45,696 nt of DNA from Syntrophales bacterium. GTDB taxonomy: Bacteria; Desulfobacterota; Syntrophia; Syntrophales; JADFWA01. The number at the start of each line of letters is the position of its first letter. Positions within the stretch are counted from its first letter, which is position 1. Below are positions 11,159-41,709 of the stretch, piece by piece. The notes under the pieces are model-generated. The model did not search any database. It was not told the origin of the DNA and saw nothing but the letters and a program-made list of their open reading frames with translations. The DNA lies in assembly GCA_030655775.1 (NCBI GenBank), contig JAUSPI010000080.1, forward strand, positions 1 through 45,696, given 5' to 3'. A program made the position numbers and the translations under genes.

Positions 11159-11164
11159 TTACAC

Positions 11165-11735: not shown

Positions 11736-11757
11736 TCAAAAATTAAAGTATTAACCA

Positions 11758-12276: not shown

Positions 12277-12278
12277 AG

Positions 12279-12335
12279 AGCTAACCCGTCATTGCAGCAG
12301 ATCGCTAACGCGCCTGCTTAATTCAATCGTTATGA
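12279..12335 (+). other. Integron-type attC site
   Basis: The left core agctaac (12279-12285) and right core gttatga (12329-12335) enclose arms around gcagcag and ctgctt, with outer attg/caat pairing. It follows the stop codon of the preceding gene by a few bases. Confidence 0.5.
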
Positions 12336-22300: not shown

Positions 22301-22650
22301 CTGTAGCAATGCTCCAGTATGGGGTAAAGGAAACACTCCGTTTTCCCGGATCCGGTGCCCGTTGCCACGATAGTCGAGCGCGGCTTCATGCCTGAGAGGC
22401 GTTCAAATGCCTTTTCCTGATGAAGAAATGGAGTAAAATTAAGGGGAATTTTCGGAAAAAAGTCAGACCCTTCTTTGCCCTGACGGAAGGGCAACTGGAT
22501 AGACAAATAGGGGCCTTTAAAAATCCCCCCATCTTCCGTAAACAGGTTTTCTATAAGACCGTTGAAAAAAGGCGTGGATACAGGGAAGGTGGTGCGCAGA
22601 AAATCTTCAACACCTTGCCTGACATGTTGAGCTAATACTGATGGAATCAT
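16318..22650 (-). CDS. Giant YprA/DruE-type DEAD helicase with MZB (DUF1998) and Vsr-like domains
   Basis: This 2110-residue protein has an N-terminal superfamily 2 core: A-T-G-T-G-S-G-K-T at 96-104, Y-P-M-N-A-L near 130, V-V-D-E-L-H near 227-232 and G-T-S-A-T-L-G. Cysteine pairs around 480-600 look like zinc knuckles. Motifs T-L-E-L-G-I-D-I-G near 1020 and Q-R-I-G-R-A-G-R-R near 1050 complete the helicase. A C-N-D-C...C-P-R-C ribbon lies near 1350-1370, and the four-cysteine MZB/DUF1998 signature (C-T-C...C-Y-R-C) near 1620-1640. Residues about 1690-1800 resemble a Vsr/PD-(D/E)XK nuclease: A-D-F-I-F-Y-P, then V-V-F-T-D-G-F-F-F-H. In DISARM these functions are split between DrmA and DrmB; one long chain is the Druantia DruE layout. 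Its start overlaps the stop of a 44-codon ORF (ATGA). Confidence 0.88.
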   Translation of the reverse strand: MIPSVLAQHVRQGVEDFLRTTFPVSTPFFNGLIENLFTEDGGIFKGPYLSIQLPFRQGKEGSDFFPKIPLNFTPFLHQEKAFERLSGMKPRSTIVATGTGSGKTECFLYPILEHCYRHRGEEGIKAVIIYPMNALATDQAGRIAKIIWNNENLRGHVTAGLYVGQSEREPSTRRVMSPDSIITNKDTMRLKPPDILLTNYKMLDYLLVRAKDFPLWKQNGETLRFLVVDELHTFDGAQGTDLACLLRRLKARLNTPQGFICCVGTSATLGGEAEQDSLLDYAGKIFGESFEESAIINELRLSAGEFLERSLISRIDIVPEDEKGKLDPESYDGYREYVRAQHKLWLGAEIPEEDFEKDEWRVDLCEKLRSHLFFQNLLKVLGGGTRGYDDILGELEKVTPEFQNAESSYKTNLLNSMLALISEARLWKDENENSTEPFLHVRLQYWLRELRRMVGEVSQNPRLRFADDLNEEQLQVHLPVVHCRECGSVGWTGLKRQHDSAVLTDLQSFYIGFFSDDPKVLFLFPEEGDIHKLGLDGDSYYFCTSCLHLTSQAKPENCPDCNHKDIIRVFAPNTRVRRKNRMIALHNCPFCGGVNSLTLIGSRAASLTSVAISQLFSSSFNDDKKLLTFSDSVQDAAHRAGFFAGRTYRFNFRSALQKFVFDEGKGQTLAELPGAFICYWSDRMDKNTYVATFLAPNMAWFRDYSYLEKNGRLPEGSTLRTYVDKRIEWEIYSEYGFSARIGRTLEKTGSSVAHVDTKLLDEITDLLLEMLRNEIGEMRGLDEMTLRRFLAGFCVHLKNHGAILHPVLKGYIESWGNTYRITQRHIKWMPNFGPSTRAPVFLTTKSDTRFDQLLSRSANRKTWYQSWADKCFTQINPLISAVTDRLYELVLKTLVDKELFEERQVRNDRVWGIKPEALRVSDQVIQFQCRRCSHNVSVSVSERDSWDGAPCLRFHCSGIYEEQEARADYYGKLYATGDVERVFAREHTGLLTREDREDLETRFKSGDGENRNPCNPNLLSCTPTLELGIDIGDLSSLILCSVPPAQANYLQRIGRAGRRDGNALNVTVANARPHDLYFFAEPEEMIAGRIDTPDVFLNASAVLERQLTAFCFDRWVESGITEAALPAKIGQVLSKLQPVDYRRFPHNFLRFIENSQTNLFDSFVEIFSETLTGESVEHLKVFVEGDSAWEDSLRYKIMTGLYTLHSERESLRKKIRTLNSKIRKKEKDPARDRKYEEDLGDLRREKGALQSLVSGINSRDTLNFFTDEGLIPNYAFPEAGVMLRSVIYRKKEQAQEGGRNYDVWTYEYERPAVSAIDELAPDSHFYAGGRKVKVDQVDMELSEVQTWRFCNDCSHMELLGKEEENPVCPRCGSALWSDEGQLRRMLRMRQVFATTSDRESRIEDDNDDRIPSFYNKQMMLDFEEQHITDAYKVDSEELPFGFEFLSKASFREINFGEKGEAGENVVIAGVELPRKGFVVCRQCGKVQDDKGKIGHAFTCTARDQESDKNLTDCVYLYREFSSEAIRMLLPVTTFAGSERKLHSFVAALQLGLKKKFGNNIYHLQTTVYEEPVPESTYRKKYLVLYDTIPGGTGYLKQLMRSEQPLLEVFDLALESLRTCTCNQDPGKDGCYRCLYAYRSSYHMAETSRDAAIELLSEILKHRDNLVKTETLRNVHVNALFDSELEVRFIEALRRTRMDDLPVTLSKELVNGKPGYFLKIGERAWYIEPQVNLGHGDNVSIASRADFIFYPARSQESVKPIVVFTDGFFFHKDRIGKDMAQRMAISHSNRYNVWSLTWKDVENRYRALSDYFRNYADPKGKPNDKNFDKFLKGFGIEKFRDIHRTDSFEWLVRYLSNPDEKAWQLYAFIHGLINLDPQGFSDPDVLKKWTAKLKKTLPEEMFELFKDVEDPCLYGLFEPEEQDNDAPLSLFVLADQEDVRQSNANEMKLACCLYDQVENRDRKYFENVWNGYLRLYNLFQFIPYAFFVTQEGLKGHAYDGIKIGEAPVVSDKETASDSWADICAVTGKELHTLLDTLAENGWPIPEVGYELVDNVGEIVATAELAWENKKIAFLQENELEYADAFEKAGWQVFSLTAVVDDPEAYIGLNKA

Positions 22651-22781
22651 TTCAATTCTCTGGTTTTTCTGTAGTAGGGGGGGTTGTGGGGATGCCGCAT
22701 CTCCCCCTTAAAGAAATCAATTGGGGTGCACCACGAATGCGCCTTTCTTAAATTCATTACATCCCCTGTATTTGCTAACAT
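22647..22781 (-). CDS. 44-codon ORF coupled to the YprA-type helicase
   Basis: Its TGA overlaps the helicase ATG (atga), so translation should be coupled. Sequence includes M-N-L-R-K-A-H-S-W-C-T-P-I-D-F-F-K-G and P-H-N-P-P-Y-Y-R-K-T-R-E-L. The frame stays open upstream of the chosen ATG back to about 22825 (C-W-E-V-L-E-M-L-A-N-T-G-D-V), so this could be a small protein or the C-terminal remnant of a larger gene. gggaag precedes the ATG. No family recognised. It fills most of an otherwise unexplained 204-base gap in a compact operon. Confidence 0.5.
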   Translation of the reverse strand: MLANTGDVMNLRKAHSWCTPIDFFKGEMRHPHNPPYYRKTRELK

Positions 22782-22854: not shown

Positions 22855-24225
22855 TTATTGCGGCTCGTGCTTTTTGCGTAGGACATAGTACGTGCCTCTG
22901 CCCGTTGTTCCTAATCTTTCCAGAACTTTCTTCTCAACCATGCCTTTAAGTTCATTAGAGGCAAGTCTCTGCTTTATTCCGTTAATCTCCCTGTATTCCC
23001 TGTTTGTTATCCTTCCCTTCTCAGTGATATAAAGGCATGCTTTTAATTGCCGATCATTCAGTCCAAATTTGTCAAAATATCCTTCCTCAAAAGTATCCTT
23101 CCTCAGTGTAACCATGAACCCCCCGCTAACTTCCTGAAATTCAGGTTTTGGGAGTCCTGCTTTTTCACAGGCGATTATCATTCTTTGAATACCGCTGCCA
23201 TACCGTTCTATTATGCTAAGATCATAAAATACCTGAGCAATCAGCTTATTTCTGGGTCTGGATGAATGTTCCGGTCGATAAAGATCTTCCAGCGTAATAC
23301 CAAAAGGCAGCGGACCGGGGTTCCATATCTGAATAGAATCATCAAAGATTTTTATCTGAATATCAGGGGTGTCGTTGTAATCTCGGTGGCATATGGAATT
23401 GACTACCGCCTCGCGCAATGCCTCCAGTGGATAGTCCCATATTTCCTCTCTACGTGATTTTCCGGTAATAATAAATCGAACATTTATATGCTTTCGAAGA
23501 AACTCCAATGTTTCATCTATCTGTCCAATGATGGTTCCTCCAAACAGCCTGTCATCAATTATTTCTATATTTGTCCTAAATCGGCCACAATGTACTTGTG
23601 CCTGAATCAATAGGGATTGAGGACGTTTGCCAAAAAGGAGAATGGAAGCCCATGTGGGAACACCCTCTTTGACGAGGTCCAATTTTTCAAGGATTTCAGC
23701 AGGGTTTACACCTTTTTTAAAATTTCTCCTCCCCGTGGCTGAGGACAACTTGATAAACTCATCAACCTTTTCAAGATCAATATCGTTCAGGCTGGTATTC
23801 CTGGCCGGTAATGTATCCCAGCTACTACCGGCAGTTAACAGATGCATTTGAGCAATCTCCTGTGGTGACATTTGTCGGTTACTGCTTTGCATCCTCCTAA
23901 AGCAACGTCCTTTTGTGGCCACCGGTTTTAACGGAAATTCCTGCACCTCAATAATGGCAATCCTTCTGCCCTTAATTTTATCCGATTTGATATCAGGGAT
24001 AACAGTAGGCTCTGTGTTTTGAGAGATTCGATTTGCCCAATCTTTTAACGTTTCGTTACCTATGTCCACGCCTTTGATATTGCCCTGATTGTCCACGCCG
24101 ATGATAATTACACCACCACGGGTATTTGAAAATGCAACAGCCGTTTCAATGGTTTCCTTGTTGAACCCGGCTTTAAATTCAACGGTTTCAGATTCGCCAG
24201 CCTTCAGCAATTTTGTGATATCCAT
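22855..24225 (-). CDS. AlbA_2 (Schlafen-like) DNA-binding, RecG-like ATP-binding protein
   Basis: Residues 1-120 of this 456-residue protein form an AlbA_2 domain (E-S-E-T-V-E-F-K-A-G-F, then N-T-R-G-G-V-I-I-I-G-V-D-N-Q-G and G-R-C-F-R-R-M-Q-S-S-N). Residues about 270-400 form an HATPase_c_4 module (A-L-R-E-A-V-V-N-S-I-C-H-R-D-Y, N-P-G-P-L-P-F-G-I-T, E-R-Y-G-S-G-I-Q-R-M). A C-terminal winged helix (K-G-R-I-T-N-R-E-Y-R-E-I-N-G-I) closes the chain. Such proteins are usually called transcriptional regulators or putative ATP-dependent DNA helicases; in Schlafen-related proteins the AlbA_2 fold can bind or cut nucleic acid. gaggtg gives a good ribosome site. Directly before it lies a short copy of the methyltransferase gene tail. 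Confidence 0.85.
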   Translation of the reverse strand: MDITKLLKAGESETVEFKAGFNKETIETAVAFSNTRGGVIIIGVDNQGNIKGVDIGNETLKDWANRISQNTEPTVIPDIKSDKIKGRRIAIIEVQEFPLKPVATKGRCFRRMQSSNRQMSPQEIAQMHLLTAGSSWDTLPARNTSLNDIDLEKVDEFIKLSSATGRRNFKKGVNPAEILEKLDLVKEGVPTWASILLFGKRPQSLLIQAQVHCGRFRTNIEIIDDRLFGGTIIGQIDETLEFLRKHINVRFIITGKSRREEIWDYPLEALREAVVNSICHRDYNDTPDIQIKIFDDSIQIWNPGPLPFGITLEDLYRPEHSSRPRNKLIAQVFYDLSIIERYGSGIQRMIIACEKAGLPKPEFQEVSGGFMVTLRKDTFEEGYFDKFGLNDRQLKACLYITEKGRITNREYREINGIKQRLASNELKGMVEKKVLERLGTTGRGTYYVLRKKHEPQ

Positions 24226-24241: not shown

Positions 24242-24262
24242 CGCCTTTCAAATTCTGATATT
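24242..24262 (-). repeat. Methyltransferase gene-tail copy 3
   Basis: On the minus strand this reads E-F-E-R-R and then a stop, just before the AlbA_2 gene. cgcctttcaaattctg (16 bases) matches 29903-29918 exactly, and its first 14 bases match the true methyltransferase end at 32546-32559. Confidence 0.65.
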
Positions 24263-24343
24263 TACCCAATCTGTTTTGAAATATTTTAGAAATTAATCAA
24301 AAAATAATATCCTCGTATAAAGAGAACATTTCTCAATAAGATG

Positions 24344-27300
24344 CTATGAAGTTTTCTTGTTATACCTAATCTGTAAACCCGCGTTACGAATATCATATGA
24401 TCTTTGGTGTTTTTTGTCATATGGATTGGGTAAGAATTGAAACTCAGGCATCTCAGACAAAGCATTGGTGACATGTATGATTAAAAACTTGTCTCTTCTC
24501 CTATTTGCTTTCTCAACAGCAAGTCGAATTTCAGATAAGCCTAATTCAAAATATTCTTCATCTCCTGAAGTTGCCTTCACTTCGATGTAGAAAGTTTTCC
24601 TCTCGTGGCGAACCATAAAATCGCATCCGAACCTATCGTTAACTTTGTTTTGTGGATACTTTCTAAGGCTGTTCTCGGAAATCCAGCAGTTAGGATTTAC
24701 GACCCCAGCTCCGTAATTTTTCAGTAGTGAACGGTAGGCATGGATTTCGCCCGCCAGCCCTATCAGGTTTTTCATCGCACCTGACATCCTCCCTGATGGA
24801 ACTGTTTTTCTTTCTCTTCCTCCCCCCTTACCACCAACGCCACTTTTCTTTGCAGTTGTAACCTCCCTTAATTCAGCCAGGTTATCAAAACATAGGCCCG
24901 GCAAATGTTCTTCTCCAATTTTATCAACAATATGGTTCCAGAGGTGGGACAAGTTCTCCTCAGAGTTGTCAAAATTCTTTCCACATACCGATACAATTCT
25001 TTTTTTCTCTTGTTGCTCTTGTTGATGACGATCCAGTTGTTCTTTTGCCTTTTCTCGTTCATTAACTGATATGGAAAGACTGGTCATGAGATCTTCGAGG
25101 TTCTCACAGCCAACAAAAGCATTCCAAAAATTTGACTGGGTATCTTGTTTCGGCAACTGTTCCAATATTGAATATGCTTGTTGGTTATCCCAAAAGTCAA
25201 AATAGCCCTCTTTATCTAATATTTCTCTAATATAATCTAAGATTACCTCAGTTTCTCTTCCCCAGTAACCAACCTCCACGTTGTTTTTCAAACACCAAAT
25301 AATTGCTATTTGCTTCAATGAATTTAGAATATCCCGGCATCGTTCACAATTTTTGCTGTATATTTCAAGGGGATCTAAAGTGGACTCAAGTCCTAGTTTT
25401 TCAAGTTTAACAATCAACTCTTCTGGCGTTCGGGAGGAATCGATGGTATCAAGTTCGTCTCGAGAAGCTTTCCAGGATGCAAAGAGAGGTCTTATTACCT
25501 TCATGACCGAGGAAAATTCTACAAACCAGTATTTAACTTTTAGTTCCTCTGGACAAGGAATAGCCTCCACTTGATCTGACAGATCCGTAAATAAGTCAAC
25601 GCCAGGATTGTCTTTAACAATTTTTCTCAGCACTGATCGCAATGGCGTTAAGGCTGACGACAAATGGTCTTGGAATTGTTCGATTGCATCTTCATTCTTA
25701 ATGGGTTCCTCCCCTAACCCGACAAGTAGTTCGTTCCATTTGTCCAATTGAAATTCAGAACCGAACTTGTCAAAAAGGACTTCCCCCAAATCATAAAAGC
25801 CGTGTGATGTTCGAACCAATGTTAGTAGTTCTTTCCCATTAAAGTGTTCTGTAGAACAATTCGCCAAATATTCTTCCAATTGTTCAGGCGATTCAACACC
25901 ATCCAGTTCATTCAGCTCCTCGTTTAGATCGAAGGCTTTGAGTACGGGTTTTATCAATCTGATAGTCCACGACAGATCCCCGAGCCATAGTTGCTCAATC
26001 TCGGCAAATTGAGAATTCGATATTTCTAATTGGGAGAGTGCTTTGATTAGAACATCACGTGATGGTTCGTCAGTTCTTTCGATTTCACTCAAAACAAATT
26101 TGAGGGGCATATCAATATCAGCTCTTTCAACAACATGACCGATAGCTTTGTTCAGGGAACTCGGTGAGTTTTTAACATTTTCTGTAGAAAGGAGTGTTTT
26201 ATCATCCGACATCCACATTGCAGGTAAAGACGTCATTGCAATGATATTTCCATCATGCCAAAGACCTACTTCTAAATTTGGAACCCAGCACACTTTTGAT
26301 TCGCGTAACATCTGAGTCGCCCTCAGGAATGTTTTGGTCTGAGTACCGTGTGCCTGCCCTCCGGCAAAGGCAAATACGGAAAGAATGACGGGGATCAGCC
26401 ACTTTATTTCACTGTCACAAAGAAGTTCTCCTTCACCACCCTCCCAGGGTTGACCATTTACCAGAGGGCCGTCGGTCAATTCGGAAGCCAAGTGAATTCC
26501 CTTACCGTACGTCTCCTTGAACCATTTTGAAAGTCTCTTTGCATCTTTCGGTTGGATTTCCGCCACAACGGGCTTTGAATGCAGTTTTAATCCCGCATGA
26601 GAAGACTCTGTTGCATCCGGAAGGAACACGGGATTATCCTTTGATGGCATAACTACAATTCGAGATTCAAGTAAAAGCTTTTCGGGGAAATCATCATCTT
26701 CCTCGGGGTCAAAGGCGCGCCATGCATCCCTCACCTGTCCAAGAAAGATGTCTCTATTGGATATTTCAGTACGGGGATTCTCCCACGCTCGAAAAAGATC
26801 CCTCAAAAGACGACCAATGTTTTTGTGGCTTTCCAGATCAAACTTAGGCATCCCCAAATTTTCCAATGCATCGGCGAGTTGTGAACTGTTGTCCAATATA
26901 CCGGCTATTTCTCGCGGCAGGGGATTCAAATGACTAAACTGATGTGCACGACCTGCCAATACAATTGACGGTACATGCCATCTCTCTTCAGGACAGAAAC
27001 TCTCGTAGATTCCATTGCTTTCCGTTATAAGCCATGGCGTTCTTTTCAACCAAAAGTGTAAAGGAGATTCAGGTTCAAAGGAGTGCGACTGCCCTCCTAT
27101 TTTCTCGATGGAAAGCGGATTATCCCAGTCCTCATTCCAATTTGGTAAAGACCTTAGCAATATTGTCATTAGTGCCACACGAATAAAATTATTTAAGCCA
27201 TGAAACTTCTCCAGGCCGGGAAAGACAAAAAATTCTTTCACTTCATAATCAAAGGGTCCGTCGAAATATGGCCTTAAATTGTTCGAGGCGTCATCAACAT

Positions 27301-29896
27301 ACAATCCCCATGTCTCTTCATCGAAGCAGGGGGGTGGGTTTGCCGGTAGATTTACCTCTATCCCGCCACAAACATAGAATTTTGATTTCCAATCATCTGG
27401 CACAATTTCCTTTAATCTTAAGCCATCAAATGCCCCGGCTCTTGCCAGAATTTCCTGATTTTGCGAAGCAAGCCCTTTCCAAAGTTTATGGTCTGGAGGT
27501 AACATGAGTTTTTTTAACGCTTCATTACATTCTTTGGTTCCCGCTTCCTCGAGGTAGCGAGCAAGCTCTTCTCCGACCGTATTCATCCAGCCTGGTCCGA
27601 AGCTCGTCTCCCGCAGGGGAAACCACCCGCCTCTGCAGGGCACAGGAAGCCGTCCGAGGTATATTAAAGTTCCTTCCCCTTTATCCCTTGCTACAAGATT
27701 AGCAACTAATCGTAATCCCCACTGAATGATGTCCCTGCACAACCGCCCCTTCTTTGATTCTAATACCACAGGAAGTTCTGGCAGTGCTGGAATAAGAACG
27801 TTACGAAGAATTTGTTCGACTCCGAATGTTTGCACTAAATCTGACGATAAATATCTATGGATAGGCGTTGTTTGAATACCGCCCTGGCGCCCTGGAACAT
27901 GTGTCTCTATTCTTTCATCGAGAAAGGCGATATAGGGTCGTAAGCGCATGGGAATTGAATCAATTGCATCGGTTGATAAAACTTCATCGTCCGTTCCAGT
28001 AATTCGTGGCCGAAAGAATACAGCAGTTTTATCATCGCTAGCGTGTAAATCGTCATCCGTTCCGAGTAATACTTTTTTCCCTTTGAGTTTTTCAGAGTTC
28101 TCAGGCAACAATTTTGATACATCTTTCCAAAAGCCTGTCCAGTCTGCTCTTTTACCTTTTCTGTGAAATTTCTCCGCGATTTTCTCTATCGTATCCGCGA
28201 TCCATTCATCTTTGGGTAATATACTGATATTTAGTGCATTATATAGCTCTCTTATAAGAGGTTCTCTAGAAACGGTGTTCTTATGGAAAACAGGGAATGT
28301 TGCCTCGGTTCTTAATACTTTTTCCGTTATAATTTTGGGCTCATCTAATTCGGGAAGCAAATTTGATTCAGTGATTTTCATCCAGCCATGATCTGTTAAA
28401 CAAATATTTTCTTCTTTGATTTCAAGGTTCATTTCTTTACATTCATTTCGGACAAAAGACCACCATCGCGAACCGTGTTCCCCGATATCCGGGAAAGGTG
28501 AAAGTATATCAATAATAGCACGTCCTTCATCCAATCCTTTTCCGGCGAGTCTCGAAAAAACACCATTGAGTGCCTTTTCTGCAATTTTTCGTAACAGAAG
28601 TTCGTTAAAGGGATGATCGAACTCAATGTATGTTCTACTTATATCGCCGTAAAAAGGTCCGTTAATATGCGCTCCGCAACCGCTGGCAAGTTCGGTGGGC
28701 AAAAATATATTGATATTTCCTTTCTCGGGGCAGTCATCAATTTTAACGGCTAAAGCAACGGTGGCCTTTTTCATTCCCGGCCATTTGCCGGGCAGATTAC
28801 AAACCGCCGCCTCTATTTCTTCCGTTTCTATCGGGTTATCTTCACCGCCTATGGTGCGCTCCCACAACCAGTACCTCTTTGAAGGCATATCTCCGTTATC
28901 AGTTTTTGTAATTTCAATGTTGATCTCCTGTCCGTTTTCAGGATCATTGAGAAAAACCTTTTTCCGTCCCACAAGACGCTGGCTTCTTCCAGAATCAATC
29001 CAGAAAGCTTTTACCCGGCCCAGAAAGAGGATGGTATTTTCATTCAAACTATCAACTATTGAAATCGCCAAATCTCTTGCATCTTCACTAACGAATGGTA
29101 AACGTATAACGGTGGAGAGGCCGCTATCTTCGAATTTCTTAATCTGGTCGGTTTTTTGCGAGGCATTAATAGGAATGGGCATCATATAAGGCGAGAGGTA
29201 CCCCAGTTCCGACAGTATAAAATCAAAGTTCTCCGAGGAAAATTTTGATCGAAAAAGGCGCAGCTTTTTCTCTCCCCACTCAATCAGTGGGATGGCCGCA
29301 TCAAGAAAAACCAAAGGTTGATCGATGCCATTGAGAAGTTCTTTAATTGGCCCTTCAAACTGTTCTGTAACGTCCGGCTGAAAGCAAAAACAGTAACCGT
29401 CAAAAGGCTTGCTCGTCATGTCACTGCGTGAGTAAATTTCGGGAGTGTGCGTAATTTCCAGAACACTTCGAAACCCTATTCCTTTATTACCTATATGTTT
29501 TTCAGGATCCTTATCACTCTGTCCGAAATTCGAAAGGCTCTCAAAGTTGGAATCAGTAAAGGGTGTCCCGTCATTCGCCACATACAGAGCGCCGTATGGT
29601 TTTTCTTCCGTATTTATTATTATCTCCAGACGCCCCTTATCACCATCAACGGCTTCTTCAAACAACGCGTCATGGGCATTCTGCATAAGTTCAATAAGGA
29701 AACGGCCATGATATTGATGCTCAATCTGTTCCGTAAGGTTATGAATACTTTTATAGCGGGATGTCCCATTCGCCAGTTCATCAAGGAACGATCGTATTTC
29801 AGCAATTGTTTTTTGAATAATTTTGTCTGAGAACGTAGATTGTTCGATCTCTGAAGCTTTGTTAGCGATATTTACACCTTGCGTGCTTGTCTTCAT
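24344..29896 (-). CDS. GHKL-ATPase (sacsin-like) protein with C-terminal DUF3883
   Basis: This 1850-residue protein has an N-terminal Hsp90/GHKL ATP-binding fold: Q-N-A-H-D at 72-76, A-N-D-G-T-P-F at 107-113 and G-N-K-G-I-G-F at 136-142. A long helical middle has no motif I can name. A coiled-coil, basic stretch (R-H-Q-Q-E-Q-Q-E-K-K-R) lies near 1620, and residues about 1710-1850 are DUF3883-like with a nuclease-type D...E-x-K (G-C-D-F-M-V near 1755, Y-I-E-V-K-A-T near 1772). Sacsin-like HATPases with DUF3883 recur in defence islands; the likely role is a switch whose ATP state controls nuclease activity. Its ATG and ribosome site lie within a leftover methyltransferase tail, so its original upstream neighbour was a methylase gene. 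Confidence 0.82.
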   Translation of the reverse strand: MKTSTQGVNIANKASEIEQSTFSDKIIQKTIAEIRSFLDELANGTSRYKSIHNLTEQIEHQYHGRFLIELMQNAHDALFEEAVDGDKGRLEIIINTEEKPYGALYVANDGTPFTDSNFESLSNFGQSDKDPEKHIGNKGIGFRSVLEITHTPEIYSRSDMTSKPFDGYCFCFQPDVTEQFEGPIKELLNGIDQPLVFLDAAIPLIEWGEKKLRLFRSKFSSENFDFILSELGYLSPYMMPIPINASQKTDQIKKFEDSGLSTVIRLPFVSEDARDLAISIVDSLNENTILFLGRVKAFWIDSGRSQRLVGRKKVFLNDPENGQEINIEITKTDNGDMPSKRYWLWERTIGGEDNPIETEEIEAAVCNLPGKWPGMKKATVALAVKIDDCPEKGNINIFLPTELASGCGAHINGPFYGDISRTYIEFDHPFNELLLRKIAEKALNGVFSRLAGKGLDEGRAIIDILSPFPDIGEHGSRWWSFVRNECKEMNLEIKEENICLTDHGWMKITESNLLPELDEPKIITEKVLRTEATFPVFHKNTVSREPLIRELYNALNISILPKDEWIADTIEKIAEKFHRKGKRADWTGFWKDVSKLLPENSEKLKGKKVLLGTDDDLHASDDKTAVFFRPRITGTDDEVLSTDAIDSIPMRLRPYIAFLDERIETHVPGRQGGIQTTPIHRYLSSDLVQTFGVEQILRNVLIPALPELPVVLESKKGRLCRDIIQWGLRLVANLVARDKGEGTLIYLGRLPVPCRGGWFPLRETSFGPGWMNTVGEELARYLEEAGTKECNEALKKLMLPPDHKLWKGLASQNQEILARAGAFDGLRLKEIVPDDWKSKFYVCGGIEVNLPANPPPCFDEETWGLYVDDASNNLRPYFDGPFDYEVKEFFVFPGLEKFHGLNNFIRVALMTILLRSLPNWNEDWDNPLSIEKIGGQSHSFEPESPLHFWLKRTPWLITESNGIYESFCPEERWHVPSIVLAGRAHQFSHLNPLPREIAGILDNSSQLADALENLGMPKFDLESHKNIGRLLRDLFRAWENPRTEISNRDIFLGQVRDAWRAFDPEEDDDFPEKLLLESRIVVMPSKDNPVFLPDATESSHAGLKLHSKPVVAEIQPKDAKRLSKWFKETYGKGIHLASELTDGPLVNGQPWEGGEGELLCDSEIKWLIPVILSVFAFAGGQAHGTQTKTFLRATQMLRESKVCWVPNLEVGLWHDGNIIAMTSLPAMWMSDDKTLLSTENVKNSPSSLNKAIGHVVERADIDMPLKFVLSEIERTDEPSRDVLIKALSQLEISNSQFAEIEQLWLGDLSWTIRLIKPVLKAFDLNEELNELDGVESPEQLEEYLANCSTEHFNGKELLTLVRTSHGFYDLGEVLFDKFGSEFQLDKWNELLVGLGEEPIKNEDAIEQFQDHLSSALTPLRSVLRKIVKDNPGVDLFTDLSDQVEAIPCPEELKVKYWFVEFSSVMKVIRPLFASWKASRDELDTIDSSRTPEELIVKLEKLGLESTLDPLEIYSKNCERCRDILNSLKQIAIIWCLKNNVEVGYWGRETEVILDYIREILDKEGYFDFWDNQQAYSILEQLPKQDTQSNFWNAFVGCENLEDLMTSLSISVNEREKAKEQLDRHQQEQQEKKRIVSVCGKNFDNSEENLSHLWNHIVDKIGEEHLPGLCFDNLAELREVTTAKKSGVGGKGGGRERKTVPSGRMSGAMKNLIGLAGEIHAYRSLLKNYGAGVVNPNCWISENSLRKYPQNKVNDRFGCDFMVRHERKTFYIEVKATSGDEEYFELGLSEIRLAVEKANRRRDKFLIIHVTNALSEMPEFQFLPNPYDKKHQRSYDIRNAGLQIRYNKKTS

Positions 29897-29957
29897 TTTA
29901 AACGCCTTTCAAATTCTGCATAGGCGGTCTCGTAGTTTTTTTTCGCGGTCGCAGGGA
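29897..29957 (-). repeat. Methyltransferase gene-tail copy 2 (frameshifted remnant)
   Basis: About 60 bases align with the last codons of the methyltransferase gene (32541-32600). On the minus strand one frame gives C-D-R-E-K and, after a shift, Y-E-T-A-Y-A-E-F-E-R-R-L-K and a stop that overlaps the ATG of the GHKL gene (atga). The true gene reads D-R-E-K-D-Y-E-T-A-W-T-E-F-E-R-R-L-K. The rest of this 107-base gap shows nothing. Confidence 0.75.
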
Positions 29958-30003
29958 AGATTTTTATTCTTTCATGTCAATTCTGGATCCTGTTAGAAGA
30001 CCA

Positions 30004-30450
30004 TTATTTCAAACTCCACTTTTCTGTGAATTTCTTACCTTTATCAGTCAGCTCGTAGACTGCATCAATTATCTGGCGATCATTTCCATAGGAAGAAAGG
30101 TATTTTTTAAATTCGAGAAGTTGTGATTCTACGAGATGATTAACCAAATAGGGCGAAGCAACAACCAACCCATTCCTGTAAGCTTCCTTTAAGGCGTTGA
30201 CCCCTTGTTGAGTCAATGTCTTACAGATAAGACGTTTCTTAATAACAAACAGATCATCTTGAGAAGGTCCTTTCTCTTGATGATAAAGGTGATGGCAGTT
30301 GTGGCAAAGCACTATTTTATTGTCGTATGACTCATCCTTGGGTTCTCGTTGAATAATGTGGTGTATTGTTAAAATACGGTAGTCTTTGATACCACAATAC
30401 GCACATGCGCCGTCAGTCTCCGAAAATAACAATGCTTCTGTGTCTGCCAT
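30004..30450 (-). CDS. HNH endonuclease
   Basis: This 148-residue protein has a complete HNH core near residues 16-66: C-A-Y-C-G, T-I-H-H-I-I-Q-R, and N-K-I-V-L-C-H-N-C-H-H-L-Y-H. The paired C-x-x-C motifs bind a structural zinc, and the histidine of H-H-I is the expected metal ligand and catalytic base. The C-terminal half is a helical or winged extension. The gene has ggaagga 6 bases before the ATG and follows the Shedu gene by 43 bases. HNH proteins cut DNA in restriction and homing systems; here it is probably a second nuclease arm of the operon. Confidence 0.85.
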   Translation of the reverse strand: MADTEALLFSETDGACAYCGIKDYRILTIHHIIQREPKDESYDNKIVLCHNCHHLYHQEKGPSQDDLFVIKKRLICKTLTQQGVNALKEAYRNGLVVASPYLVNHLVESQLLEFKKYLSSYGNDRQIIDAVYELTDKGKKFTEKWSLK

Positions 30451-30493
30451 AATATCCTTCCTGTTTCGTAAATCAATCCAAAATAGTTACAAC

Positions 30494-31669
30494 CTAAAAA
30501 GGAACATCATCGATTTCATCGCTTACACTCGACGCGCACGGTGACTCCAAAACGCCGATGAGATTCTCTGCTTTTGCAAACATCTCGTCATAAGTAATGA
30601 TGTGCACACCGGGTAGCTGCCCCCTGAAAAGCTCGAATGATTTTCTTTGATCTCGTTCCTCAAGTTGTGCCTGTGCATTTCCAATAATTATGACGCATTG
30701 CGGATTAAAGGATTCAAACAGGTTACCTTGTCCACGTGTAAGTGAAGTGTATTGCTCAGATAATGTGTGCTTGTAATTGAGTATCTGCATTACTGCTCCA
30801 GAAAGATCCTCGGATAAATTGTAGATACTATTTCGATACTCTCTTCCAAGAAGAGGTGTCCCTGGAGTCTTTATTTCGATAAGAGCTGCATTCTGCGTTA
30901 ATTGATTCCTAATGAGGAAGTCTACGATACTTCCACCGACATTCTCGACCGTCTTTCCGCCAACGTAAGCCTTTCCCTTCACGATTGTGACCGGCCAGGA
31001 AAATATTTGTTCGAGCACAAATGAATTTTCGGTCAGAGTAGATTGCCAAAACTCCTCATCTGTCGACAATGAATTCTTCTTCCATATATCTATCGCTGTT
31101 CGCAGACTCTGAATGCCAACTGCAATATTCAATTTCTTCAAAGAATCCTGGCCGAGATCGACAAGCCGTTCTACCAGTGCCGTTGGATCATCCGCAGAAA
31201 CCGCCCATTGCACAAGTCGCGAGAGAAGGGTAGCACCAAATTTCCTGTTAGCACTGAGGAACTGTGCCAGCTGGTACTGAGGCATTCCCACTAATTCCGT
31301 AATTTGCTTATTGGCCTTGATATACTGGGACTCGCCCTGTGGAATTCCAGATTCAGCGTAAAGCTCGTACAGACTTGAAATCTCTTCATGAAGATAGAGG
31401 AGCTCTTCTGATTTGACTTTAAGCTTGAAACCTTCGCCCTTTTTCAATTGAGAAAGTGGAATTGAGGGAAGGTTTTCCCATTCATCATTTCGTCCCTTAC
31501 ACTGAAAGATAAAAGTTCCATTAACTGAAGCCTGATCATTTCGCGGGTTTTCAACAAGCATGGGACGAAAAACAAGTCGCGTAGTATTCGTTTCTCGAAG
31601 AATGATATCCGAGCACTCCGCAGACCGCTTTGACGTTGACTTAACCTGCATCGTATCTTGATCCGCCAT
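30494..31669 (-). CDS. Shedu-type (DUF4263) nuclease
   Basis: This protein of about 391 residues has a C-terminal half matching the Shedu SduA/DUF4263 pattern: E-E-F-W-Q-S-T-L-T-E-N-S-F-V-L-E-Q-I-F, Y-V-G-G-K, V-D-F-L-I-R-N (catalytic Asp), A-L-I-E-I-K-T-P-G-T-P-L-L-G (E-x-K) and Y-R-N-S-I-Y-N-L-S-E-D-L-S-G-A-V-M-Q-I-L-N-Y-K. The N-terminal part differs between Shedu proteins and is thought to sense the invader. Shedu is normally a one-gene antiphage system; here it is the fourth large gene of a helicase-methylase operon. The frame is open to an ATG at 31684, but the ATG at 31669 has ggagga 7 bases upstream and is preferred. Confidence 0.87.
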   Translation of the reverse strand: MADQDTMQVKSTSKRSAECSDIILRETNTTRLVFRPMLVENPRNDQASVNGTFIFQCKGRNDEWENLPSIPLSQLKKGEGFKLKVKSEELLYLHEEISSLYELYAESGIPQGESQYIKANKQITELVGMPQYQLAQFLSANRKFGATLLSRLVQWAVSADDPTALVERLVDLGQDSLKKLNIAVGIQSLRTAIDIWKKNSLSTDEEFWQSTLTENSFVLEQIFSWPVTIVKGKAYVGGKTVENVGGSIVDFLIRNQLTQNAALIEIKTPGTPLLGREYRNSIYNLSEDLSGAVMQILNYKHTLSEQYTSLTRGQGNLFESFNPQCVIIIGNAQAQLEERDQRKSFELFRGQLPGVHIITYDEMFAKAENLIGVLESPCASSVSDEIDDVPF

Positions 31670-31743
31670 ACTATTTTCCTCCATCTGGAGCCAAGAAAAT
31701 ATTTTCTTAAATCGAATCTTTTCTCAGCCTGGCCTAAATTCTA

Positions 31744-32490
31744 TCACATCATGGACCCTTTGATGAGTTCAACTATAAGTGAGACTCCGATATCCTTTGC
31801 TACTCCGCATACCCAATCACCAGAGTTTCTTATGCGTTTTAGCATGCTTGGTCCATTAGCATCCTTAAGATCTTCAAATGCCATGCTAACTTGAGATAAC
31901 GCTTTAAACTCATCATCTGTCGTAGCTTTCTTAGACAACTCCGGTATCAGAGCCTTAAAATCACGTTTTAATTCTTCTATGTCAATGGAATTTTGTACTT
32001 GATTCCATTCTTTTATGAATGTGATATCAACCGAATGGACATCACCCCCTATAGCGCACCCATAAAAATTATAGTTATTAAAAACAATTACTTGATCATC
32101 CTTCTTATAAATACCTGATTCAGATTTCCTTTCGAGTATGTTTTTTAATAGATCTGTGACTTTTTCAATTTCTCCTTCATCTCTTCTGAAAGATTTTATA
32201 TTTTCAACTACAAGCTCACTTGCGGTCATGCTTCTCTGTCCTTCTGGTTGCGCCATTACTTCTTCTGGTATGATTGTAGTTATTGTTGCTGTTGCAGAGG
32301 AAGCTATGTCAATTATTGAAGCCGAGATTGCTACCGATTCTGTAATGCGATCTGAAACATTAAAACTTTCATGTATTTCCGCATTAATTATCCTTTTTTC
32401 AGAGCCACAATCGGGGCATAAAGGTTCATTCTCACTACGATATTTTCCACAATCAGCGCATTGAATTAATTCGTTGCTTATTTTAACCAT
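31744..32490 (-). CDS. Zinc-ribbon protein with a defence-type helical C-terminus
   Basis: This 248-residue protein opens with C-A-D-C-G...C-P-D-C-G (about residues 11-31), a clear zinc ribbon. A small hydrophobic stretch follows (I-A-S-S-A-T-A-T-I-T-T-I-I, about 60-72), then a helical region. The segment F-N-N-Y-N-F-Y-G-C-A-I-G-G-D-V lies in mid-protein, and the C-terminal helix is W-V-C-G-V-A-K-D-I-G-V-S-L-I-V-E-L-I-K. I have seen this NFYG...IGV-type ending on small proteins beside nucleases in mobile regions but know no function. aaggag precedes the ATG. It is the first gene of the inserted zinc-ribbon/Shedu/HNH block, so it may be an accessory of Shedu. Confidence 0.6.
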   Translation of the reverse strand: MVKISNELIQCADCGKYRSENEPLCPDCGSEKRIINAEIHESFNVSDRITESVAISASIIDIASSATATITTIIPEEVMAQPEGQRSMTASELVVENIKSFRRDEGEIEKVTDLLKNILERKSESGIYKKDDQVIVFNNYNFYGCAIGGDVHSVDITFIKEWNQVQNSIDIEELKRDFKALIPELSKKATTDDEFKALSQVSMAFEDLKDANGPSMLKRIRNSGDWVCGVAKDIGVSLIVELIKGSMM

Positions 32491-32517
32491 GGATATCTCC
32501 TTGTATTTCTCCGAATG

Positions 32518-35500
32518 TTATCCTCTCAACAGGATTGATTTTAAACGCCTTTCAAATTCAGTCCAGGCGGTTTCGTAGTCTTTTTCACGGTCGCAGCGGT
32601 CGAAGGGGGCTTCGTAGGTGATGGTGCGTTCACGGGGGCCGCCGGGGAGGGTGTCGTCTATGATTGTTCGTTCCACTTTGCCGGATTTCATGTCATTGAT
32701 TTCGTTCCATTCGGGTCGGGAGAAACCAACTCCTGTCAATCCCTTGCTGCAGGTGAAGACGATGCGGCCGTTCCGGTCGTACCAGGTGTCGTTCTCGTTC
32801 TGCCTAAGGACGGGGAACTGGACACGGTAGATGGTTTTGAGTTCGTCCAGTGTCAAACCGAGTGCCATGGATGCCAGGACGTCGATTTCCACGAGGGCCT
32901 GACGCCGGGCATAATCGGTGCGGAGGGCGCAGTTGCGGTTCCAATCGGGGGTCAGATTTGAAAAGTGGCTGTCGGGAAGACGGGGGTCCAATTTGGTCCA
33001 GAGATCGGTTTTGAAGGAATCGTTCCAGGATTCTTGCCAGAGGTCAGAATAAAAAGCGGTAAGGGCATTCATTAATAGAGACCTCAGAGAAATATACATA
33101 TTGTACTCAGGAACTGGAATAGCTTTAATCAAGCCTGGAATAGCGCCACGCCCAGTTGTTTTAACAAAAAAATCAAAGGGCAAACTTGCAAAAAACCCTG
33201 CTTGAGAGACAAGTGTTGAATAATCTTTGAATGAAAGACTTAAGCAGGTCATAATATGGTAAACATTTTTGGGCATAATTGCCGAAACCAATGTCCTTTC
33301 ACCAGACTGAGACAGCATAAATCTTGATACAAGCCTGTAAAACTCCGTCACCGGCTTCTTTTCCCCCCACGGCACTCGCGGCGTGCGCCGCAGGTACTCG
33401 GCGGGATCGCAGTCAGGCATATAATTGGTGCGGGGCAGATAATCATAGGGAAGTTCGGTGAGATCTATAAGATTGTAAGCACGATGAGTTTCACAAATTA
33501 CTTTAGGTGTTTGATAAAAGGGGTTCCCCACATAAAAATGCGGTCCCGACAGTATCCAGTCACCGGCGGAATCGGGAAAGCGTGTCTCGCGACGTATGGT
33601 GCCGTCTTTTTTGACGGCATTAGTCTCATCCCAAATTATTGTTGAGTAGTATTCACCTTTCAGGTCGTCCAACCGCTTCGTCTGTGCGGCAATTTTTTGC
33701 AGGACGCTGATCAATTGACGGGAATGAAGGGCTGGCAAGCGTGCTTGCAGAGACGGTGTTTCAGAATCATCATACAGATTCGCAAATAATGCCAGTTCCT
33801 TATCAGTAACCTGCACGATGCGCTGAACATGACCCTTAATGTTCCATTTATCATTTACATCCTTAATTTCTGGTACTGCCCCCCCACCACCATTATCAAA
33901 ACAAGCAACTACCGTTGAGGGGGTAAAAAGATTTGCAATATTTGAAAAATTTACAGTTTCAGTCGGAACTGCTTCATAAATATTGATACTGAACTTATTT
34001 CTGTTGCCAATAGGAAAAAGTTTGAACTCATTCTGGAATTGAAAATGCGCTCTCAATCTTGGATACATCGCCTCTCGAAATTCTCCCCCCTTAGGATCAT
34101 CATATATACCTTCCGGATGTAGAAAACCGGAAACTCCTTTTTTGCACCCAACCATCCACGCCTGGGGTAGGAAGCATCTGTACAGGTTTGTTTGTACACC
34201 CTTCAGAAGCGGGTAGTTTTGAATGGCATTAAGAAAGTTCTGTGTTCCCTCCGCCTCCTCGAAGGCGGCGAGATATTCGCTTCTTAAGTCGTATTTTCCG
34301 AGTGTTTCCTCGCGCAGAATGGCAAGCTGAGAGGCCATGAATTTTCTAATCGCGAAAAGAGGCTCCGCGTCGCCCATGATTCCGGATTCTTCCCATTCCA
34401 CCTTGATCCACGGAGGATTCCCCAGGACCAGATCGAAGCCGCCCCTGTCGGCGAAGATATCGGCATACTCAAGCTCCCAGTGGAGGAAACGGTGGCTTTC
34501 GGCAAGTTCCCGTACCAGGGAGAGGCGTGGAAGCTCGCGGCTGAGTTTGTCCACATCGACAAAGCCGAATTTGTCCACCAGCTCCAGGGCCGTCTGCCGT
34601 GGCATGGTATCGGGGAACATCGATATTTGCTCGCCTTCTGACGGTGTTGTATCGTAGATATTCCCTTCCAAGATGAGGGAAAGTTCCAGCAGGAATTCCT
34701 CACGTGTCGGAAGAAGATCTGCTTTTTCAATAGGCCAGAACCAGAGGGCGCACCAGTAGTCCATGACAAGTTTCAGGCGGCGGTACGGACTGGAGCTTGA
34801 AATATTCTGTGAGAGGATCTCTTGCTTATACTTACGGTCTTTCCATTCGATAGCGGAGGGATTTCTTTTCTTCTCCGGTTTTGACTGTCCGAAAAGGGTC
34901 AACTGGTCGCTCGTTTCCGCACGAACGATGCGCTGATGATCTGTATGACGTTTCCAGAGCCTGTCAACGGCGGCGGACATCTTTTTCAATTGTCGAACAT
35001 CCCCCTCGGAAAAGGTCTTTGCAAAGTTTTTGTGCCACTCCATTATCTTCTTTATTTCATCCTTGGCCATCTGACGGATTACCTTGTCTTTGTAATCCGC
35101 CATTCCCTTATCCGGCAGAAGGAAATGATAGACGGTGTTTTCCGGTCTTTCTTCAACCGAGGTGACCCGTTCTGGCACTTCATCCAACCAGATGGAATCA
35201 TTCTTTTGCACCCGACGTAACAAGCTTGAAGCATAAACCTGCCGGCGTGCCCCGATGAGTGAATTGCCCGTGACAAGCTGCATGCCGAACCAGGGCACAT
35301 ATGCCCCTTCATGGATGGTGTTCAGCCAGAGGGACACCTCTGCAAGCTCCACCGCCACCGGGTTGAGGTCCACACCGAAAACATTATTGTCGGCAAGGCA
35401 CATCTTTACCTTTTGTTTTTCCCGGGTGTAGCTTTCATGGGGGATGGTTTCACCGGTTTCTTCCTGCTTGAGACGAAGATAGGCCTCTGCGAGCTGGTTT

Positions 35501-37245
35501 ACTGCTTCGTTTAGGAAGGCGGCACTCCCCATGGCCGGCTCACAGACGGTCAGTTGAAGTATATCATCGGCGGTCTTGTCCCTGAGCAGTTCCTTCAGGG
35601 CATATTTCACGAGGCATTGTGTCAGGACTTCCGGCGTGTAATAAGAGGCCGATTTCTCCCGGTCACGACCGGCCAGGCGGTAAATAAATGTTCCCCTCGT
35701 GTATTTTTTCAATGTCCCGTCGTCGTTGAAGACTTTTTCGTCTTCCCTGTACTTGGAAAGGTCTTCCGCCTTTACAAAGTATGCGGTTTCCAGCTCGTTA
35801 TATTTTTCTCCCGATTTTTTTACCTCGTAAAGATCAGTTTCGGCGAAAAAGCCCTGATATGAGAGGAGCGCTTCATAGACGGCGCCGAGCTGGTTGATGC
35901 CTAATTGGGCATAGGAAATTCTACCCCTTCGCTTGCTGCGGTTTCCCGGCTGTGAAAGAGACATCAGTCTGATTACACGCTGGAGCGTTTCATTTGTAAA
36001 CTTCACACGGTTCAGGATCGATGTGCGTGCCGGGTCAAAAAGGTGGCTGCTGAGTGGTGTGATTCGGAAGATATGATGTTCCGGGCCTGCGCCGAGGGCA
36101 AGCTGCTCATCCTGCTTACCTTTCGTCGGAGGATATCCATCGTAGATCAGCTCGAAAAGAAGCTGGAGGGAATCGTGAATGAATGTTCCGTTTCTCGACT
36201 CTTCGGTTGAAAGCTTCACCATCTCCAGGTCGCGCAGTGTTTCGAGGCTGTAACCCGTCCGGTAGGCATCCGACTTCATAGGGGCATAACCAAGTTCCGG
36301 CCTTGCCTCTATGTAGAACAAAAAAAGCAGACGATACATATACCGCAGGCACTCTTTCGTCAGCTCTTTGGGATCAATTTTTTCTTCGCCGGAAAAAATG
36401 CCTTTTCTCCGTATTTCACGAAGGTAGATTACCGCTTCGTTCCCGAGTAGTTCTATCGCCTCGCGAAGGGCGTATTTCAGATCTTCAGAGACGGCGAAGG
36501 CGTGTTTGTGGGAATTTTCATCGAGGGTATCGAGGAGACTCAGGCCTTCCGCGGGGCATACACTTTCCCGGTGAAGAAGCGCCGCCATAGACTGGAGTGT
36601 CGAAGTTTCTTTACGTCCCAGGATTTCAGTAAGCTCAAACCGCAACAGGCGCTTTTCGTTCCACTTGCCCCGGTCAATAAGGACAAGCTGGGCGTCGCTT
36701 GCGAGCATCACCCAGCGCGGCGGTTCGGACCGTCCAAAGACCTGTTTTGAAATAATATCCTCAAGGGGAACATCGGTTAATTCATTATTGGTTTCTTCAT
36801 TCTCCGGATACTGACAGTCGAGAATCGAAAGCTCCAGGGGATCAGCATCTTCGCCCGATGGGTCAACGGCCTCGATGATCCACAGCTCCGGCGCCCCGTT
36901 GGGTCTTTTGATTTCTCCCGCTATCGGCAAGAAGCTCCCGTTATCCAGCTCCTTTAAGGCTGGTTGAAACTCATAGCCGAGAACAGGCAGCAGCTTTTCC
37001 AGAAACTCTCTTTGCAACTGGAGGCGCTCTTCTGTTTTTCGCTCTTTTTCCAACCGGTTTCTCATGGTGAAGAAGTCTTTTGAAAGACCCCGCAGATCGG
37101 CATAAGGGGGGCGAGCAGCCTCCTCTTCTTCCCTTTGCTTCCATTTCTTCAAAACATCTTTGAGGTCATTTTCGAGAATGGCGTTCAGGTAGTGGTCTGT
37201 ATAAAATTCATTGATGTTGCCGATTCCGGTAAAATCAATAGCCAT
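32518..37245 (-). CDS. Large N6-adenine DNA methyltransferase, DrmMI/PglX-like
   Basis: This 1575-residue protein carries a gamma-type adenine methylase. It has Y-Y-T-P-E near 535-539, the SAM-binding motif C-E-P-A-M-G-S-A-A-F near 568-577, G-V-D-L-N-P-V-A-V-E-L-A near 624-635, and the catalytic N-P-P-W near 943-946. The roughly 250-residue N-terminal part resembles the helical/nuclease-like leader of Eco57I-type enzymes, and the C-terminal 450 residues should hold the target-recognition domain. In DISARM class 1 the comparable protein (DrmMI) marks host DNA. Its start codon shares one base with the SNF2 gene stop (tgatg). The last 20 codons are partly duplicated twice downstream in the operon. 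Class is firm; equivalence to DrmMI is inferred from the neighbour. Confidence 0.87.
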   Translation of the reverse strand: MAIDFTGIGNINEFYTDHYLNAILENDLKDVLKKWKQREEEEAARPPYADLRGLSKDFFTMRNRLEKERKTEERLQLQREFLEKLLPVLGYEFQPALKELDNGSFLPIAGEIKRPNGAPELWIIEAVDPSGEDADPLELSILDCQYPENEETNNELTDVPLEDIISKQVFGRSEPPRWVMLASDAQLVLIDRGKWNEKRLLRFELTEILGRKETSTLQSMAALLHRESVCPAEGLSLLDTLDENSHKHAFAVSEDLKYALREAIELLGNEAVIYLREIRRKGIFSGEEKIDPKELTKECLRYMYRLLFLFYIEARPELGYAPMKSDAYRTGYSLETLRDLEMVKLSTEESRNGTFIHDSLQLLFELIYDGYPPTKGKQDEQLALGAGPEHHIFRITPLSSHLFDPARTSILNRVKFTNETLQRVIRLMSLSQPGNRSKRRGRISYAQLGINQLGAVYEALLSYQGFFAETDLYEVKKSGEKYNELETAYFVKAEDLSKYREDEKVFNDDGTLKKYTRGTFIYRLAGRDREKSASYYTPEVLTQCLVKYALKELLRDKTADDILQLTVCEPAMGSAAFLNEAVNQLAEAYLRLKQEETGETIPHESYTREKQKVKMCLADNNVFGVDLNPVAVELAEVSLWLNTIHEGAYVPWFGMQLVTGNSLIGARRQVYASSLLRRVQKNDSIWLDEVPERVTSVEERPENTVYHFLLPDKGMADYKDKVIRQMAKDEIKKIMEWHKNFAKTFSEGDVRQLKKMSAAVDRLWKRHTDHQRIVRAETSDQLTLFGQSKPEKKRNPSAIEWKDRKYKQEILSQNISSSSPYRRLKLVMDYWCALWFWPIEKADLLPTREEFLLELSLILEGNIYDTTPSEGEQISMFPDTMPRQTALELVDKFGFVDVDKLSRELPRLSLVRELAESHRFLHWELEYADIFADRGGFDLVLGNPPWIKVEWEESGIMGDAEPLFAIRKFMASQLAILREETLGKYDLRSEYLAAFEEAEGTQNFLNAIQNYPLLKGVQTNLYRCFLPQAWMVGCKKGVSGFLHPEGIYDDPKGGEFREAMYPRLRAHFQFQNEFKLFPIGNRNKFSINIYEAVPTETVNFSNIANLFTPSTVVACFDNGGGGAVPEIKDVNDKWNIKGHVQRIVQVTDKELALFANLYDDSETPSLQARLPALHSRQLISVLQKIAAQTKRLDDLKGEYYSTIIWDETNAVKKDGTIRRETRFPDSAGDWILSGPHFYVGNPFYQTPKVICETHRAYNLIDLTELPYDYLPRTNYMPDCDPAEYLRRTPRVPWGEKKPVTEFYRLVSRFMLSQSGERTLVSAIMPKNVYHIMTCLSLSFKDYSTLVSQAGFFASLPFDFFVKTTGRGAIPGLIKAIPVPEYNMYISLRSLLMNALTAFYSDLWQESWNDSFKTDLWTKLDPRLPDSHFSNLTPDWNRNCALRTDYARRQALVEIDVLASMALGLTLDELKTIYRVQFPVLRQNENDTWYDRNGRIVFTCSKGLTGVGFSRPEWNEINDMKSGKVERTIIDDTLPGGPRERTITYEAPFDRCDREKDYETAWTEFERRLKSILLRG
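32541..32600 (-). repeat. Methyltransferase gene tail, original copy
   Basis: The true 3' end of the methyltransferase gene (D-R-E-K-D-Y-E-T-A-W-T-E-F-E-R-R-L-K). It is the source of, or sibling to, the partial copies at 29897-29957 and 24242-24262. Confidence 0.7.
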
Positions 37246-40542: not shown

Positions 40543-41709
40543 GTGATGGATCAGAAGACCATAGAATCTTGCAGTTTCATTTCGACGAAAGAATCCCTGA
40601 CGACTTTTGGAAGTATTGATCAACGGGAAGGGATTCACCCACCCAGTGTTTTTGCCAAAATCAACAAAGGAAAATTAGAGAGGCCGTTTTGTCCTGAATT
40701 CGAGAATAAGACGAGAGCGCTTCAAAGGGCACTGAATCGTCTTGCAGGATGGGACTTGCCGGGCAAAGAACATGTTGAGGAATATTTTCGGTACATGTAT
40801 CGGCGGAACTTCAGACCCAAAACGTACGCCAGTAACTTGGTAGCGATTTATATCTTTCTCACCGTTGTCAGGGATTCGGGGAAAACGAGTCTGGAGGAGA
40901 TCACCAAGAATGACATTGAAGCTTTCATTGAACATGAGCAGGATCGGGGTTTGATGCTATCGACGGTGCGGACGAAACTGCATTGCGTCAATGCCTTTTT
41001 GGGTTATGCGATTGACGAAGGCATCGTCAACACGGCTGTTTTGGCAAGAAGGATTCGCCTGAAAAAGCCAGAGACATTGCCACGAGCCATGGATCCGGAT
41101 GACGTGAAGCACCTACTTTCCATTATTGATCATACGAAAGCCCGGGCCATGGTCACGGTGCTTCTGCGGACGGGGATGAGAATCGGAGAGTTGCTCAACA
41201 CGAAGATGCAGGATCTTCACCTCAAGGATCGCAGGATTGATATTTACGAGGGGGAGAAGAACCGATTGGGACGGGTTGTGTATCTCAGCGATGATGCGGT
41301 CAGTGCTTTGAGGACATGGCTCAACATGAGAGACGCCCATAAAGAGTTCCTCTTTTACGCCCAAGGTAAGACCAGCATGTCCTACAGCACTGCTCGTCAG
41401 ATGTTTGTAGATTATCTTACGAAAGCGGGCCTTACCTATAAGGGGTACTCCCTTCATGCGCTTCGCCATACCTTTGCCAGTGAGCTTTTAAATGCCGGCA
41501 TGCGAATCGAATGTCTCCAGCCACTGATGGGGCATACTTCTCTGGATGTAACACGGCGCTATGCAAGGCTCACGGACAAGACCAGGGAGGAAGAGTACTT
41601 CAGAGCCATGACGATTATAGAAAGGGGGGAGATTGATGGACATTATCGACGCGATCATCAGATACAGGCGTTTCTTGAAGAGAAGGAACGTCTCACCCAA
41701 CACTGTTAA
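40543..41709 (+). CDS. Tyrosine recombinase 1
   Basis: In this 388-residue protein a 60-residue N-terminal extension precedes the core-binding domain (Y-R-R-N-F-R-P-K-T-Y-A-S-N-L near residues 90-103). The catalytic domain shows L-L-R-T-G-M-R-I-G-E-L-L, H-A-L-R-H-T-F-A-S-E-L-L, M-G-H-T-S-L-D-V-T-R-R-Y and the nucleophile Tyr in that last block, so all key residues (R, H-x-x-R, H, Y) are present. aaaggagg lies 5 bases before the ATG. It overlaps the next recombinase gene by 77 bases in another frame, implying co-translation. Confidence 0.9.
   Translation: MMDQKTIESCSFISTKESLTTFGSIDQREGIHPPSVFAKINKGKLERPFCPEFENKTRALQRALNRLAGWDLPGKEHVEEYFRYMYRRNFRPKTYASNLVAIYIFLTVVRDSGKTSLEEITKNDIEAFIEHEQDRGLMLSTVRTKLHCVNAFLGYAIDEGIVNTAVLARRIRLKKPETLPRAMDPDDVKHLLSIIDHTKARAMVTVLLRTGMRIGELLNTKMQDLHLKDRRIDIYEGEKNRLGRVVYLSDDAVSALRTWLNMRDAHKEFLFYAQGKTSMSYSTARQMFVDYLTKAGLTYKGYSLHALRHTFASELLNAGMRIECLQPLMGHTSLDVTRRYARLTDKTREEEYFRAMTIIERGEIDGHYRRDHQIQAFLEEKERLTQHC

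Follow-up and report, generated by a model that had tools for sequence, protein, structure and literature searches.

In this study, we analysed a stretch of 45,696 nucleotides (nt) from a Syntrophales bacterium (contig JAUSPI010000080.1 of assembly GCA_030655775.1; the whole stretch is referred to as the window), whose minus strand carries an anti-phage operon that is an ARMADA type II system with five extra genes, here called cargo, between the core genes armB and armC. This arrangement very probably arose by stepwise insertion of cargo behind armB, with displaced armB ends left behind. Sequence comparison shows that cargo is added behind armB and that former armB ends persist before older cargo; for the window the order of gain shown in this way places a gene for an AlbA_2 protein first, a Tiamat gene next and a block encoding a zinc-ribbon-like protein, a Shedu nuclease and an HNH endonuclease last. 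An earlier note on the window had proposed that each of these blocks once followed a methylase gene directly and that new blocks were added behind it.

Displaced ends of armB

The 3' end of armB, the methylase gene (32518..37245, on the minus strand like all operon features described below), had been noted to recur in front of two other genes of the operon, and this was confirmed: the 14-mer CGCCTTTCAAATTC is present without mismatch at 24242, 29903 and 32546. Remnant 1 (29892..29954), a 5'-truncated and frameshifted armB 3' end displaced before the Tiamat gene, is 86% identical over 63 nt (BLAST, E 2.9e-13) to its source stretch in armB (32535..32596, the aligned part of the armB tail, query positions 105-166). 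It covers armB from about -79 nt through its end, with one extra base shifting the frame, and scores about 44 (43.5-44) against at most 21.5 for controls; when the armB 3' end was compared by BLAST with the whole genome, only armB itself and 29892-29954 were matched. One frame of remnant 1 reads YETAYAEFERRLK, and its TGA stop codon overlaps the ATG of the Tiamat gene (AAATGA). Remnant 2 (24242..24257), a short armB 3' piece (EFERR) before the AlbA_2 gene, consists of CAGAATTTGAAAGGCG, which matches remnant 1 exactly over 16 nt and armB exactly over 14 nt; none of 2000 dinucleotide shuffles of its intergenic stretch reached its score. The proposal that each remnant supplies the stop codon or the ribosome site for the next gene needs adjusting for AlbA_2, as that gene has a GAGGTG ribosome site of its own, and remnant 2 therefore supplies at most the stop codon there. 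A candidate fourth copy, a gapped match 5' of armC at about 22741-22757, was not significant and was discarded, as 50 of 2000 shuffles reached its score.

Copies of the same gene end are also found in related operons, which are designated here by locus numbers. Each armB contributed its final 100 nt as a query against all intervals between armB and armC, or slots, longer than 100 nt (n=70, some cut by contig ends), and six clear armB-tail copies were detected in five of the 70 slots, namely those of the window, L103, L135 (two copies), L030 and L005. All six lie in operon orientation and score 28-56.5, the best reverse-complement or reversed control reaching 21.5. The first set of slots was also searched with a protein profile built from the armB tail, and the top ranks fell to L030, L005 and the window. 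Recurrence of this kind is confined to the final ~100 nt of armB; five other 100-nt armB segments gave no matches save a marginal score of 24 in L103, which falls where the L103 remnant extends upstream. On the strength of the controls and the absence of matches for other armB segments, a chance origin of the long remnants was rejected. More broadly, it could be argued that chance, or selection for a coding or ribosome-site motif that resembles the armB end, has produced these similarities, and GAAAGG does resemble a ribosome site. However, the similarity extends over 63-105 nt including coding positions, the scores lie well apart from those of the controls and in one pair of loci the alignment crosses a stop codon into the next gene, which makes this explanation highly improbable, although it is still possible for the 16-nt remnant.

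The pair in question is formed by the cyanobacterial loci L030 and L135, which represent states without and with XisHI between armB and an antitoxin gene. The order in L030 is armB, an antitoxin-like gene, PIN and XisI, and that in L135 is armB, XisH, XisI, an 86-nt armB tail, the antitoxin-like gene seen in L030 and a PIN gene that is shortened; from its position, the small gene before PIN probably encodes the antitoxin of PIN. The intact L030 armB end with its stop codon, spacer and antitoxin gene aligns over 376 nt, at 87.5% identity, with the L135 remnant and antitoxin gene. Because this alignment continues past the stop codon and on into the antitoxin gene, the L135 remnant is a former armB end. 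The pair alone does not fix the direction of the change, which is either a gain in L135 or a loss in L030. These two states agree with the addition of blocks behind the methylase, and a gene order uniform across all loci was not found. In L135 there is also a 1703-amino-acid (aa) cargo protein, a fusion of a DEAD and a UvrD helicase, whose gene (7176-12287, flipped coordinates) splits an older XisI gene; the second armB tail comes after the fusion gene.

Loci in which the older blocks directly adjoin the methylase gene, as the proposed history would lead one to expect, do exist. On a viral contig (L103), armB and the Tiamat gene TmtA are joined by a TAATG overlap, and the order is armB, TmtA, an armB tail of ~95 nt, a DUF932 gene and armC. 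In a Bowmanella locus (L035), TmtA (1638 aa) follows armB after 8 nt and is itself followed by armC. The Shedu block is absent from both. In L060, a SLFN_AlbA_2 gene begins 3 nt past the armB stop codon. The families of both older window blocks therefore occur directly behind armB elsewhere.

Occupancy of the joint between armB and armC

The relatives comprised 80 loci from genome contigs, five from viral contigs and further loci from sampled genomes; as they were picked by similarity to the window armB, the counts are not population frequencies. With a joint taken as occupied when its gap was at least 300 nt, the joint between armB and armC was occupied in 49 of 70 measurable loci (maximum gap 9.9 kilobases, kb), compared with 8 of 73 for armA-armB and none of 41 for armC-armD. 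This joint is a clear insertion hotspot family-wide, in line with the suggestion of the earlier note that the methylase 3' end is such a site. The slot was empty in 21 of the 70 loci, and in 8 of these the armB stop codon and the armC start codon overlap by 4 nt, the same junction type as that between remnant 1 and Tiamat. By length, 86% of the slot open reading frames of at least 100 aa run in operon direction. The cargo includes TmtA, GajA, PifA, PDC-S68 and PDC-S39 as well as PIN, XisI, XisH, MqsA-like and AlbA_2 proteins and toxin-antitoxin pairs. There were 521 matching E. coli genomes, and 60 of the 521 were listed, all with an empty slot as judged from a record span close to the query span; among these listed matches E. 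coli is thus uninformative on scars.

Two further observations concern the family as a whole. An ARMADA II-like armB (66-67% identical) is present in L060 and L009 on contigs binned as archaea (Methanococcoides and Diapherotrites), for which misbinning is possible; ARMADA type II is described as not occurring in archaea. At the armA-armB joint of L004, L010, L025 and L028, an insert of 620-680 nt recurs, perhaps representing one small gene.

Possible routes of insertion

In the best-supported reading, defence genes join one block at a time at the cargo slot between armB and armC, directly after armB. Where the right-hand junction of an insertion lies within the final ~100 nt of the armB already present, the displaced 3' end of this armB persists as a 5'-truncated stub heading the older cargo. 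Homologous recombination in armB, which is conserved, and less often in armC may anchor the incoming DNA of armB and cargo, whose other end would be joined without homology. In empty operons the armC start codon is overlapped by the armB 3' end, which might in addition pass translational coupling to the inserted gene. Such homology-facilitated illegitimate recombination, in which one end is joined by homology and the other without it, is known from laboratory transformation and conjugation and predicts that ends of the anchor gene are displaced in truncated form (PMC3240628); we infer it here, and consider the chances about even that this was the route, the 4.7-kb armB supplying the homology at one end and the other end being joined illegitimately. 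It would account for the truncated 5' ends, the variable starts and the mirror case of L017, where a 52-nt copy of the armC 5' head lies within the slot (15478-15530). The left ends of the remnants differ between loci, from -68 to beyond -100, and such variable boundaries favour illegitimate joins. Most insertions would lack a stub because the join falls behind the armB stop codon, and stubs would be short because longer ones constitute long direct repeats, which are lost by recombination.

Several points weigh against stepwise insertion by this route. The end states are seen alone, and neither a donor molecule nor an event was observed. Remnants were detected in just the five slots named above, most insertions having left none or only decayed ones, and the remnant before AlbA_2 is as short as 16 nt. 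The left boundaries of old remnants have possibly been eroded, which leaves illegitimate joining unproved. The window remnant is nearest to its own armB, and a foreign allele is not required there. Moreover, the majority of the loci are on metagenome contigs.

With regard to the source of the incoming DNA, four of the six remnants, including ones in L005, L135 and L030, resemble the armB tail of a different locus slightly more than that of their own locus. This fits the part of the earlier note that invoked recombination between alleles, although it is weak evidence and such an exchange is still an inference. A collapse of tandem ARMADA operons would lead to the same outcome and would likewise leave remnants of a different armB allele, as in L005, L135 and L030; in this case neighbours with different cargo are fused by a deletion that starts after the first cargo and ends in the second armB. 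However, all six remnants derive from the last ~115 nt of the 4.7-kb armB, which a random deletion without selection would not favour, and no tandem operon was seen among the loci, so that we regard a collapse as unlikely.

Site-specific elements, such as those in icd or guaA, are classically recognised by a displaced gene 3' end. The armB 3' end could accordingly be taken for the attachment site of a tyrosine recombinase, at which an element substitutes for the gene end and the displaced end comes to lie on the far side of the element, and two tyrosine recombinase genes indeed adjoin armA in the window. Neither of these recombinases has a relative in any slot, however, and integrases are absent from the 25 commonest cargo families. 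The crossover point is not fixed, given the range of remnant left ends (for which erosion is possible), and L017 carries an armC head instead. Integration of this kind is therefore quite improbable.

A Campbell-type single crossover, in which small circles carrying a cargo gene and an armB tail use the tail as a homologous landing site, and in which cargo can later excise again and relocate as a cassette, is possible but doubtful. It would explain why the same cargo precedes an armB tail in different loci, as is seen for XisI and tail in L030 and L135, where the junctions are homologous, and for TmtA and tail in L103 and, in shorter form, in the window. On the other hand, neither a free circle nor a second copy of a cargo-tail unit was seen, the window genome has the armB tail at one place outside armB, and homology of ~100 nt is short for efficient exchange. 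Tentatively, the displaced armB tails may also make cargo portable, as cargo placed between an armB and such a tail would have homology on either side, which would allow it to be stacked into any ARMADA II operon by ordinary homologous recombination; XisI and tail (L030, L135) and TmtA and tail (L103, window) are candidate units. If this is true, portable cargo would amount to an array of cassettes in which no dedicated recombinase is needed.

The window operon and its relation to known systems

The window operon keeps the core order armA-armB-armC-armD, yet 9.87 kb separate armB from armC. The first gene, armA (37245..40082), encodes a BrxHII/RapA-like SNF2 helicase (PADLOC DrmD 3e-105, BrxHII 3e-66; Pfam SNF2-rel_dom) and armB, the second, a PglX/type IIG-like adenine methylase (PADLOC REase_MTase_IIG 8e-286, DrmMI 7e-54, PglX 1e-6; Eco57I). 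The third core gene, armC (16318..22650), specifies a YprA-family helicase with a DUF1998/MrfA zinc-binding domain (DEAD 2.6e-22, Helicase_C, MZB 9.6e-12); for the Vsr-type nuclease at its C-terminus, predicted from structure in the ARMADA paper (PMC12458937), no Pfam match was obtained. In the last, armD (14156..16300), the UvrD/GajB-like helicase part was matched (UvrD-helicase 4e-22; PADLOC GajB 2e-29), and the N-terminal RelE-like domain gave no family match.

Within the cargo, the most recent block encodes a 248-aa putative zinc-ribbon-like protein (31744..32490), a label that stems from the first reading of this open frame, which has no Pfam or PADLOC match and one weak partial match across 297 genomes. 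It is followed by the Shedu nuclease SduA (30494..31684; PADLOC SduA 8e-129), in which both the N- and the C-terminal domain are present (Pfam SduA_N 1.9e-34, SduA_C 6.8e-28), and an HNH endonuclease (30004..30450; PF01844 1.2e-6). The second block (24344..29896), previously described as a GHKL-DUF3883 gene, does encode a long GHKL ATPase protein with DUF3883/NOV_C at its C-terminus (SACS, NOV_C) and is more precisely identified as Tiamat TmtA (PADLOC 1.4e-233). Relatives of this protein (42-44% identity) in two other genomes of the same phylum, as well as one on a Desulfosarcina plasmid, are stand-alone and do not adjoin armB. The third block (22855..24225) is the SLFN/AlbA_2 protein with HATPase_c_4 (PF04326 8.7e-24, PF13749 3.6e-26), a family that is common as a stand-alone gene in the phylum (62 of 297 genomes). 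Scans of viral contigs revealed no relatives of Shedu or AlbA_2.

Divergent from the operon and adjoining armA are the two overlapping tyrosine recombinase genes (40543-42529, plus strand), which may have moved the whole operon. Further along, an OLD-like AAA ATPase with TOPRIM (AAA_15/AAA_21; 5322-7073, minus strand) and a PDDEXK_4 nuclease (8639-9652, minus strand) place it among other possible defence genes.

If cargo is acquired as proposed, the vague clustering of defence genes becomes a readable mechanism, in which one joint in one operon family gathers known defence genes (Tiamat, Shedu, Gabija GajA, PifA, AlbA_2 and toxin-antitoxin pairs) and scars record the order of their arrival. 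The slot also offers a handle for discovery, since the unassigned genes that it holds are candidates for defence genes or ARMADA partners. A cargo slot of several layers behind the methylase of ARMADA, bearing scars from which the order of insertion can be read, was not found in the literature searched, which for the ARMADA paper means its main text. That text describes these core genes, four in number and identically ordered (BrxHII-like helicase, PglX-like methylase, YprA helicase and GajB-like UvrD helicase), presents the gene order as strict and leaves Shedu unmentioned (PMC12458937), whereas other genes lie between armB and armC in the window and in the 49 occupied loci.

Defence genes nested in other defence operons are already known. 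In type I BREX, BrxU (brxC-brxU-brxX in VchBan9, PMC11580459; BrxU, PMC8565348) is likewise a stand-alone defence gene within a methylase-containing defence operon, although it is one gene at one place, and a stack of blocks and displaced gene ends are not reported in the available parts of these sources. PrrC in the EcoPrrI type IC restriction locus is likewise an effector nested in a restriction-modification locus, where it acts as a backup (PMC12707154); its host, by contrast, belongs to the type I restriction systems, and no scars are described for it. A guard role of ARMADA cargo would be conceivable.

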